Of a stretch of DNA of 64,000 bases, positions 52,824 through 61,478 are shown one piece after another. The position numbers and the translations under genes are program-made. The stretch's first letter is position 1, and each line of letters starts with the position of its first letter. Source of the DNA: an uncultured bacterium (GTDB lineage Bacteria > Bacillota > Clostridia > Lachnospirales > Lachnospiraceae); the NCBI GenBank assembly GCA_947243845.1, contig CAMXIF010000011.1, positions 1 to 64,000 on the forward strand, in the 5' to 3' direction. A model generated the notes under the pieces. That model was not told the origin of the DNA. It made no database searches and saw only the letters and a program-made list of their open reading frames with translations.

Positions 52824-53681
52824 ATGAATGAACTGTATTCCTGCCGAGAGGCAATTGAACAGTGTTCCGCTACCCATACCTTTGCCATTGCACACCTATA
52901 TAAAGAAGAAAAAACCATGGATATGCATATTCATGATTGTTACGAAATTTATTATTCTGTGTCCGGTGGGAAACAGTTCTTGATCGACAATAAACTGTAT
53001 GACATCGAACCAGGCAATCTGTTCATAATCAATCAATACGAGAGCCATAAAATCACACAGGCCGACAAGATGACACATGAGCGCATCGTCCTGTCCATTC
53101 ACCCAGAATACCCGAAGCGCCTCTCTTCTGCCGGAACAAACCTGGATGCTTGTTTCACTGCAAGGCCGGAAACTTTCTGCCATAGAATCGCTTTAAACAA
53201 AGAACAACAGAAGCGTTTCCTGTATTATATTAATAAAATCACAGGCGCAGAAGGTTACGCCTGTGACATTTATGAACAAACTGCTTTTATGGAATTGCTG
53301 GTGTTAGTCAACCGGCTGGCCCTGGCCTGCCAGATGCCGGAAATATCCGTCAACTGCGTGCACAATCAGCAGGTGGATGATATCCTGACCTACCTTAATC
53401 TGCATATTTCTTCTCCCCTTACTCTGTCGCAGCTGGCCGGGGAATTTTTCTTGAGCGAATCTTACATCTGCCGGATTTTCAAAGCAGCTACCGGTACGAC
53501 CATCAACAAATATATCACCGCCAGAAGAATCAGCATCGCCAAGGCTCTGCTGAGTGATGGCTGCAGCGTCATGGAAGCCTATGAAAAAAGCGGCTTCACC
53601 GATTATAGCGCTTTCTTCAAGGCTTTTACCAAAGCGATCGGCATCTCGCCCAAAAAGTATGCGCAGTGCAGCGTCAGCTGA
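52824..53681 (+). CDS. AraC-family transcriptional regulator
   Basis: The 285-residue protein has an N-terminal cupin domain (about 25-110, TMDMHIHDCYEIYYSVSGGKQFLIDNKLYDIEPGNLFIINQYESH). A C-terminal AraC helix-turn-helix pair follows at about 185-280 (LSQLAGEFFLSESYICRIFKAATGTTINKYITARRISIAKALL ... FTDYSAFFKAFTKAIGISPKKYAQ). It is divergent from kduI and the SDR gene across about 290 bp and is probably their activator. The ligand is likely a uronate-derived compound. A good promoter precedes it. Confidence 0.87.
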   Translation: MNELYSCREAIEQCSATHTFAIAHLYKEEKTMDMHIHDCYEIYYSVSGGKQFLIDNKLYDIEPGNLFIINQYESHKITQADKMTHERIVLSIHPEYPKRLSSAGTNLDACFTARPETFCHRIALNKEQQKRFLYYINKITGAEGYACDIYEQTAFMELLVLVNRLALACQMPEISVNCVHNQQVDDILTYLNLHISSPLTLSQLAGEFFLSESYICRIFKAATGTTINKYITARRISIAKALLSDGCSVMEAYEKSGFTDYSAFFKAFTKAIGISPKKYAQCSVS

Positions 53682-53756
53682 TCTCTTAAACTTGTTTCAG
53701 CGAATCGCATCTATACCAATTTATGTATCTATGTACATGCCAGTATTTCGTACTCT

Positions 53757-53915
53757 TTATTGCTCCACTATAATTTTTTCTGCATGCGCCGATACTGCAA
53801 ACATTTTATTATAAGCATCCTTTTTCCAATTTGGCCATCCATTGATCGTTTTATTTACCTTTTCATAAGATTCCTTAGGATCCCAGCTTTTTTCATTTAC
53901 TTTTGTTGCTTCCAT
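53757..53915 (-). CDS. 52-residue unrecognised protein directly after the dCTP deaminase gene
   Basis: A complete short ORF reads MEATKVNEKSWDPKESYEKV and on through NKTINGWPNWKKDAYNKMFAVSAHAEKI to a TAA at 53757-53759. The ATG (53913-53915) is one base after the deaminase stop (TAA, 53917-53919), and GGAAAGG lies about 12-17 bp before it, inside the deaminase's last codons. The peptide is charged and Trp-rich and looks like a real small protein. I do not recognise a family. Being cotranslated with an anti-phage enzyme, it may belong to the same defence unit; that is inference. Confidence 0.6.
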   Translation of the reverse strand: MEATKVNEKSWDPKESYEKVNKTINGWPNWKKDAYNKMFAVSAHAEKIIVEQ

Positions 53916-53916
53916 T

Positions 53917-55401
53917 TTACCTATTTTCCTTTCCTATTTGATCGATTTCCTCAGTATACTGTTTATGTGCACTTTGTTCCATTTCTATATAATTCATCAA
54001 AGACATAGGATTCCTTAAATTAGCTTTGCTCCTGTCCCATTGAATTACATACCCATCTTTATTTTTTCTGTTACGTGAATACCACCTAATAGAGTGCATT
54101 GAGAACAAATCAATAAATCGGTGTGGCCCAACACCTTTAAAAGGAATAAAAACTACTTTTCTCTCACTATTCTGTCCATTTTGCGAAATCTCATTCGGAT
54201 AAAATTCCAATGCTTTACTTTTGGGATATGGCTCAATATAAACCACTTTTTTAATGCCTGCTGCAATAATATGTTTCGCACAATTATGACAAGGAAAAGT
54301 AGTCATATACATAGAACAACCTTTCGTAGAGATGCCATTTCGTGCGCACATCATTAATGCTTCCATCTCTCCATGTACAACTCTTCCAAATTCTGTTAAA
54401 GCGCCAATCCCTGTGGACTTTATTTTCGCAATATTTTCATCTGTACTAGGACAGTTCAGTTCTTTTAAAATGTTTGTGATTATTTTTTGCTGTTGAATTT
54501 TATTTGAATCATAACCTCCTTCAAATTTATAATCCCTTCCATTTACTTCGTCTTCATATTCTCCCTCTTCTTTGTTATAAACCGGCCAATATACGCCACC
54601 AAAAGCCCTTGGACAGTCATTAACACCTTCTGCCAAAATTTCACTGTCTTTTGTCACCACAACTCCAATTTGCCTGGATAAATCAGCCGATCTCAAAGAT
54701 GCCACATACGCCCTAAACATTGCATATTCCTCAAATGTCGGCGTTATAAACGGATCACCAAACAATAAATCCAAAAGCCGAAATATATGCCCCTGCATTT
54801 CAGTAGAACTATCGCCTGCACTAATAAAATAGTCTGCCTGCTGATATACATCCCCAGTGTGCTGCCCATTCTTTTCTTTTTCATTGTTGTCACGATTTAA
54901 AATTGTTTGAGCATTTGATTCAGACATGCCCTTTCGATCGACTAAATATTTTTTACGGCGCTCATATGTATCTGAAATACCTATAAGATGAAAACCCTCT
55001 CCATACGTATTTCTTAAAAATTCAACCTCATCAGGATGTTTAATAGAATCAATGATATACGCATTTCTTGGTTGCGGTCCCTCATTATTCGCTCTATAAT
55101 TGTCATAAATATAAGCTGATACGCCTTTCATAAGAATTGCTGCATCTTGAGTCATTTTACGAATTTCATTGCCCTTATCCATGAAAAACCTGATTCGATC
55201 ATATTCTTTGCCTGAAAAATCAGGTAAATCAGCAACAAATTTAGACAAAATATGTTCCGACACTTTGATTATATTGGTTTTGTAATTAAATTGATTTAAA
55301 CTATCTATAATACATGTTTTTATTTCAGAAGAATTAGTTCCAACCGGGCTGACAATTCCAATTACCAACTCGCTGTCATTATTAGTATTTCTATTCATCA
55401 T
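53917..55401 (-). CDS. Anti-phage dCTP deaminase (AvcD/DcdV family)
   Basis: The 494-residue protein matches the two-domain family of anti-phage dCTP deaminases. Residues about 10-230 form a P-loop-kinase-like domain, with a degenerate P-loop GIVSPVGTNSSE lacking the Lys. Residues about 240-470 form a cytidine-deaminase fold with the zinc motif VHGEME (HXE, about 341-346) and PCHNC (about 363-367). Such enzymes deplete dCTP and dCMP during phage infection and are held inactive in uninfected cells by a small RNA encoded upstream in known systems. The gene has a strong promoter and a leader of about 210 nt. Nearby genes are housekeeping, so it is an isolated defence island. Confidence 0.85.
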   Translation of the reverse strand: MMNRNTNNDSELVIGIVSPVGTNSSEIKTCIIDSLNQFNYKTNIIKVSEHILSKFVADLPDFSGKEYDRIRFFMDKGNEIRKMTQDAAILMKGVSAYIYDNYRANNEGPQPRNAYIIDSIKHPDEVEFLRNTYGEGFHLIGISDTYERRKKYLVDRKGMSESNAQTILNRDNNEKEKNGQHTGDVYQQADYFISAGDSSTEMQGHIFRLLDLLFGDPFITPTFEEYAMFRAYVASLRSADLSRQIGVVVTKDSEILAEGVNDCPRAFGGVYWPVYNKEEGEYEDEVNGRDYKFEGGYDSNKIQQQKIITNILKELNCPSTDENIAKIKSTGIGALTEFGRVVHGEMEALMMCARNGISTKGCSMYMTTFPCHNCAKHIIAAGIKKVVYIEPYPKSKALEFYPNEISQNGQNSERKVVFIPFKGVGPHRFIDLFSMHSIRWYSRNRKNKDGYVIQWDRSKANLRNPMSLMNYIEMEQSAHKQYTEEIDQIGKENR

Positions 55402-55646
55402 ATGTATTCCTTAAATTTTTATATATGCTGCCACAGTATAAAATGCAAACTGATACTTATAATTCCCATTACATTTTGTAGCCATTATCTTGCCAGCACG
55501 TCTATATATAGTAGTATATCATCTCCAACTACATATATCTAGTATAAATTGCTCTAATACTACATTAAAGAGACATAATATTTCTCCGCTTGCCTTCTAC
55601 AATATGCTTACAGTTTCATTATAGCAAACATACGTTCTATTTTCAA
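55402..55646 (-). promoter_or_regulatory. Promoter and long leader of the dCTP deaminase gene
   Basis: On the minus strand TTGAAA (55641-55646), 17 bp and TATAAT (55618-55623) give a strong promoter starting in the 2 bp after carB. About 210 nt separate the transcript start from the deaminase ATG. This stretch is AT-rich and includes a 24-codon ORF (55411-55485) ending just before the deaminase. In known AvcID-type systems a regulatory RNA of about this size lies in this place; no direct sequence match can be claimed. Confidence 0.55.
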
Positions 55647-61400: not shown

Positions 61401-61407
61401 TCCAAGC

Positions 61408-61478
61408 TGGGCTACAAGGATTCGAACCTTGAAATGACGGAGTCAGAGTCCGTTGCCTTACCGTTTGGCGATAGCCCA
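61408..61478 (-). tRNA. tRNA-Gln (anticodon CUG)
   Basis: The minus strand folds into a complete cloverleaf of 71 nt. The acceptor stem is TGGGCTA / TAGCCCA, the anticodon stem is ACGGA / TCCGT with the loop C-T-CTG-A-C giving anticodon CUG, and the T-arm GGTTCGAATCC is intact. The 3' CCA is not encoded. It decodes CAG. A strong promoter and a terminator flank it, so it is a single-gene unit, separate from glnN. Confidence 0.95.

Follow-up and report, generated by a model that had tools for sequence, protein, structure and literature searches.

A mobile-looking dCTP-deaminase cassette with a conserved small companion ORF and a LexA box in its promoter

What restrains an anti-phage dCTP deaminase that is encoded together with a small protein at its stop codon? 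The question is raised by a locus in the window, by which we mean the whole stretch of 64,000 nucleotides that was analysed, from a gut bacterium. There, on the minus strand, carB (58875-55648) is directly followed by a promoter with its leader of about 210 nt, and then by ORFs of 494 aa and 52 aa. The initial annotation had described the deaminase, the adjacent small ORF and the promoter after carB, all of which are found where it placed them. It had missed the LexA box inside the promoter, an AT-rich block in the leader, and the fact that all these parts, promoter included, behave as one cassette. Its interpretation held for the family of the deaminase and the conservation of the small ORF, but found no support for the leader, which it had noted to lie where known systems keep their inhibitory RNA, as an RNA of the AvcI type.

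The deaminase cassette, its promoter and its borders

The ORF at 53917-55401 (minus strand, ATG start, 494 aa) is a member of the anti-phage dCTP deaminase family, judging from a score above the curated cut-off and from its two-domain plan. It reaches 441.1 bits against NF041025 (cut-off 400), 512 bits against the PADLOC dCTPase model (E 7e-154) and 59.9 bits against PF00383 (cut-off 25), which agrees with its initial assignment to the AvcD/DcdV type. The deaminase domain, of the zinc dCMP/cytidine type, has intact HxE and PCxxC motifs, H343-x-E345 (HGE, residues 343-345) and PCHNC (370-374). An N-terminal P-loop-kinase-like domain covers about residues 11-213, with boundaries taken from the predicted model; its P-loop is degenerate (GIVSPVGT) and lacks the Walker lysine. 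The AlphaFold model of the protein (mean pLDDT 86.8) matched in Foldseek the dCMP deaminase 2hvv and, for the P-loop-kinase-like domain, the adenylate-kinase-related structure 3lw7. The enzyme is predicted to destroy dCTP, a DNA building block.

The promoter, TTGAAA-17-TATAAT (55646-55618, minus strand), is a sequence match with 11 of 12 consensus positions and an extended TG before the second hexamer. A single base separates the carB stop codon from the -35 hexamer, and the start inferred from the -10 box gives the leader of about 210 nt (55402-55611, minus strand). Promoter-like sites in the region are not above chance (9, against 10.0 in shuffles), and what sets this one apart is that three other cassettes, L005, L006 and L008, conserve it. 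Exactly between its -35 and -10 hexamers, at 55637-55626 on the same strand, sits a LexA (SOS) box, GAACGTATGTTT; the Gram-positive LexA consensus, as given in PMC2248561, is CGAACRNRYGTTYC. The cassette promoter carries a consensus box of the LexA/SOS regulon of the window's genome, in which the same pattern precedes recA and lexA. Two further sets of sites with this pattern precede genes that we take, from reading by eye, for one encoding a Y-family polymerase and one encoding a radical-SAM repair-like protein.

A match to the LexA pattern arose by chance in the 246-nt gap in 55 of 200,000 first-order simulated sequences. Genome-wide the pattern is not enriched (21 matches at 19 places, against 25 in the control), with 7 of the 19 places falling within a long ORF, and with one mismatch allowed the window holds 11 matches against 10.7 expected, which is chance level. 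Beyond the window, four of the 23 upstream regions scanned have the box: L005, L006 and L008, which keep both box and promoter, and L012, where the LexA-like sequence GAACTGTGGTTC is looser. The box was not found upstream in L007, L009, L010 and L011. From its sequence the cassette promoter looks SOS-linked, and we infer that it would be inducible.

Aligned locally, L005 and the window match over 55646-53755: one end falls on the opening base of the -35 hexamer, the other immediately beyond the stop codon of the small ORF. L005 comes from another genus of the window's family and its neighbouring genes differ from those in the window; with such borders and such neighbours, the promoter, LexA box, leader, deaminase and small ORF (53755-55646, minus strand) appear to travel together as one mobile cassette. 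L006 and L008 also follow carB, and there the homology to the window extends into carB. In 500-nt windows, G+C is 31-39% in the cassette, 49-56% in carB and 41-47% in the opposite flank, so that the cassette lies below both flanks, as is expected of an acquired unit. In that part of the locus, an ORF read by eye as an AraC-type regulator (52824-53681) lies on the opposite strand and converges with the cassette.

The companion ORF and the deaminases that carry it

The small ORF (53757-53915, minus strand) starts 1 nt past the deaminase stop, at a TAA-A-ATG junction; its product has 52 aa with 3 Trp and 9 Lys, in keeping with its first description as Trp- and Lys-rich, and carries the motif WPxWK at residues 27-31 (53837-53823). 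The initial annotation had allowed that such an ORF might not be conserved beside deaminase genes, and relatives were found there in three named phyla, the Bacillota, the Actinomycetota (L017) and the Pseudomonadota (L040, a Vibrio plasmid). Of 13 deaminase loci read from genome contigs, ten (L005-L012, L016 and L017) carry a relative of the small ORF right at the deaminase stop; the remaining three, L013-L015, have none there. Eleven aligned copies, the window's included, share invariant Y17, N25, W27, P28, W30 and K31; viral, phage and plasmid loci add remoter copies, and across this mixed set invariance is confined to the start Met and the W-P-x-W-K residues. In all nine close pairs pN (0.03-0.11) is lower than pS (0.23-0.56), the first codons of the small ORF overlapping the deaminase in several loci, although not in the window or L005. 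These comparisons mark the small ORF as a genuine gene, conserved and under purifying selection. At 18 junctions (17 loci and the window) the possible ORF starts range from about 35 nt upstream of the deaminase stop to 7 nt downstream of it, which makes translational coupling likely throughout.

The predicted model of the small protein, with helices at residues 13-25 and 29-38, is weak (mean pLDDT 67.6) and gave no match in the PDB. A PADLOC match to Csm2 (E 0.0022, 2 of 11 members) is probably a chance match of a short protein, and we also set aside the weak Pfam matches to Villin headpiece, Carla_C4 and DUF7809 (1 of 13 members each) and the weak matches in Vibrio plasmids at E 3 to 10. Scanning viral contigs with the small ORF alone brought nothing new. 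One annotated plasmid copy was checked, and its gene table does not list the companion, PLSDB tables being incomplete.

In a tree of 51 deaminases (LG+G4; one flagged long-branch pair, outside the clade), all bearers of the small ORF fall in a single clade of 20 rows, with support 100/99. A relative with the W-P-x-W-K core is present at the deaminase stop in 16 of these 20 rows (15 with strict WPxWK; the motif was loosened to W[PS]x[WS]K after L068, with WSDSK, had been seen) and in none of the 31 rows outside. The presence or absence of the ORF requires three changes on this tree; 500 shuffles averaged 13.8, and not one of them was as low. L017, L037 and L084 are partial rows. Two loci with the ORF stand outside the 51-row tree, L016, which is partial, and L008, whose deaminase (L008:5001-6508) is split over two overlapping frames with the downstream small ORF intact. 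Also outside are L025 (divergent, below the cut-off), L088 (a tiny match), and L029, L071 and further repeats of contigs or genomes already in. The divergent relative at L025:139-2355 (minus strand), of 739 aa, belongs to another member of the window's family. Twelve enzymes were examined from 51 plasmid records with a deaminase match, and 11 of them, all but L040, lie outside the clade; we expect the AvcD studied in Vibrio cholerae, itself outside the tree sample, to sit with these non-clade plasmid enzymes.

In a sample of 397 genomes from the window's family, deaminases over the cut-off and matches to the small-ORF profile (E<=0.001) fall in the same two genomes; a third has a divergent deaminase relative below the cut-off and no ORF. 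The ORF occurs in three of 98 relatives, the window's own genome included, and among 299 genomes of the phylum it is matched in the window's own genome alone. Across 378 Pseudomonadota genomes, a profile of the distant copies gave one match at E<=0.003, with an internal stop, and NF041025 matched 17 genomes at E<=1e-40, 9 of them over the cut-off. From these 17 genomes 14 loci were classified, one being L015 and one identical to L074 (L119 and L120 were left out and L118 is incomplete): by best BLAST match 12 belong outside the clade and two inside it, namely L015 and a close relative, and none of the 14 has the small ORF. Overall, the partnership between small ORF and deaminase is well supported.

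Association and coupling fit both a protein that restrains the enzyme, which is the reading we prefer, and one that is a required subunit or activator, completing an oligomer or a regulatory site and needed for defence. The latter is the main rival, and it also agrees with an alignment in which the C-terminal region of the bearer clade differs from that of the E. coli and Photobacterium plasmid enzymes. Against it, four members within the clade (L013, L014, L015 and L037) have a deaminase without the small ORF, as do the 31 rows outside; the four members show that the ORF is dispensable, which weighs against the brake reading too. We hold a required subunit to be possible, if doubtful. Eleven positions separating ORF-bearing rows from L013-L015 were considered as an interface and rejected as uninformative on it, because at several of them L013-L015 differ from most outside rows too. 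In L013 and L015, which belong to the subclade without the small ORF, from about 6440 onward, the end of the deaminase overlaps an ORF starting MKHTSEAAFETAIESVLL or MKFTSEAAFETAIESVLL, HsdR-like by eye. An extra deaminase N-terminus of about 100 residues is found in L013, L014, L015, L026/L065 and L039 (FTGTFDELKEKL... / FYGDFDDLKAL... / FDGSFEELKKKL...).

The leader

AvcI-type inhibitory RNA is encoded 5' of its deaminase, and a leader RNA acting as an AvcI-like type III antitoxin, with the small ORF as an accessory, has to be weighed against a protein that does the restraining. The leader of about 210 nt is correctly placed for this. It also contains an AT-rich block of 41 nt (55542-55502, minus strand) that is conserved in four cassettes, has two arms able to pair, and spans a second promoter-like -10 (TATACT, 55518-55513); save for the final bases ahead of the start codon, nothing else in the leader is kept so well. 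However, the leader folds like its own shuffles (z-score 0.53, no unusual RNA stability), and in the fold of the four-leader alignment one of 21 predicted pairs is compensatory, four close sequences having little power to reveal covariation. Rfam gave no match above gathering in the cassette region, and L006 has a leader that is shorter by some 50-65 nt. The block is narrowly distributed: among 120 loci a 21-nt part of it was found in the window's cassette, L005, L006 and L008 alone, a 20-nt part in no viral contig, and the block with up to 3 mismatches once in the window's genome and not at all in 40 relatives. Neither the folding of the leader and of the alignment nor Rfam nor the pattern scans support the leader as an RNA antitoxin, and we regard that explanation as quite unlikely. 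The block may be an operator or a hairpin.

The sole Rfam match above gathering in the window is a tRNA gene at 61407-61478. The plasmid enzymes of E. coli, Klebsiella and Photobacterium belong to a branch in which another small ORF, of 56-61 aa, immediately precedes the deaminase, in the place that an AvcI-type RNA would take (L041:2197-2382, L090:848-1018, L093:895-1077 and L095:124-306). These four ORFs share an ending pattern (SKKITW, AQKIRW, SKSLKW and SKSLKW, respectively), which is a hint of a protein-coding region, so that the upstream region in this branch may encode a protein; L098 has an upstream ORF without a SKKITW-type ending.

A proposed protein brake, the WPxWK motif in phages, and known systems

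Given the family, the coupled pair, the restriction to one clade, the selection, the borders and the box that can be read from the sequence, we find it most economical to see the locus as a mobile, SOS-linked dCTP-deaminase cassette in which the cotranslated WPxWK protein would bind and restrain the enzyme, in place of AvcI. We give this a probability of roughly 0.5; binding, inhibition, release and induction are steps that we infer. According to PMC10511110, AvcI RNA holds AvcD, and the shut-off of transcription by a phage frees AvcD. By analogy, the deaminase and the 52-aa protein would be cotranslated from the SOS-linked promoter, so that the brake is made in step with the enzyme, and the small protein would bind the deaminase and restrain its activity as AvcI RNA does with AvcD. 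Upon infection new synthesis would fall, and the deaminase so freed would destroy dCTP. DNA damage or replication stress could derepress the LexA-boxed promoter and raise the dose.

The WPxWK motif is also found in phages. It lies near the C-terminus of phiTE and Peat1 proteins, in ORFs of 37 and 38 aa in XbC2 and Kaldavass, and in an internal segment in phage 15G. A tblastn search matched 39 phage records, the query's own included, among them Vibrio phages, with a best E of 6e-3 besides the query's own phage 15G and its twin 15b; the matches are weak singly, leaving common descent uncertain. As a chance control, the loose motif occurred in 292 of 24,200 random 330-nt stretches of the fetched loci, an upper estimate because the sampled loci include true copies. 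Two phage proteins of unknown function were also matched at E<=1 by a set made up of 12 companions and phiTE_068: phrog_38465 by 8 of the 13 sequences and phrog_29728 by 6, with a best E for a companion of 1e-14. Unlike the window's companion, the phage copies read in phiTE, Peat1 and XbC2 have no deaminase annotated in the stretches around them. An anti-phage deaminase was detected at E<=1e-20 in 2 of 50,697 phage records, MT838710, which carries a companion ORF (L039) and is among the 39 tblastn records, and MT839973, which is not among them.

With WPxWK in phages that lack an anti-phage deaminase, the motif may have another target, and the ORFs could be small mobile modules of phage type that are carried along next to the deaminase. 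An orphan WPxWK ORF in the genome of L013 (L100:411-596), away from the deaminase and beside what by eye appears to be the end of an IS transposase, would suit such mobility, as would the phage copies. The weakness of the phage matches taken singly argues against this explanation, as do the fixed position and coupling across the clade, with three changes on the tree, and we consider it very unlikely. A wider version of the brake reading holds that this deaminase branch swapped an RNA antitoxin for a cotranslated WPxWK protein antitoxin, LexA-controlled in the window's group, and that the WPxWK proteins of deaminase-less phages, jumbo phages included, are antitoxin mimics that silence these deaminases; taken as a whole, we think it unlikely.

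AvcI RNA (PMC10511110) is the one brake that we found in the literature for an anti-phage deaminase that depletes nucleotides. Among the matches listed in our literature searches, titles and the beginnings of abstracts mentioned no protein companion and no SOS control for the dCTP deaminase family, which is no proof of absence. The deaminase branch described here, found in three named phyla and accompanied by a conserved protein, offers a small pair open to test, and may tie the SOS response to defence by nucleotide depletion. Should the relation to the phage WPxWK proteins be real, the latter might imitate the brake and give a lead to counter-defence.

Several known systems resemble the cassette in part. 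Stand-alone dCMP deaminases (S. mutans 2hvv, T4 1vq2 and human 2w4l) are like the window's enzyme in the sequence and fold of the deaminase domain, but are chains of 178-193 residues without its N-terminal P-loop-like domain. A type II toxin-antitoxin makes a small protein together with the toxin that this protein neutralises; the window's small ORF is conserved and coupled to the enzyme, and might inhibit it in such a way. AvcID (AvcD/AvcI, a type III toxin-antitoxin) and DcdV share with the window's enzyme the family model and the two-domain plan and form a compact defence unit with a presumed brake (PMC10511110), as the cassette would. On the tree, which was built without V. cholerae AvcD, the window's clade is nevertheless separate from the plasmid enzymes of E. 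coli and Klebsiella, at 31-36% identity, and the cassette differs from AvcID in that it lacks support for an upstream RNA and has instead a cotranslated protein downstream and a promoter with a LexA box.
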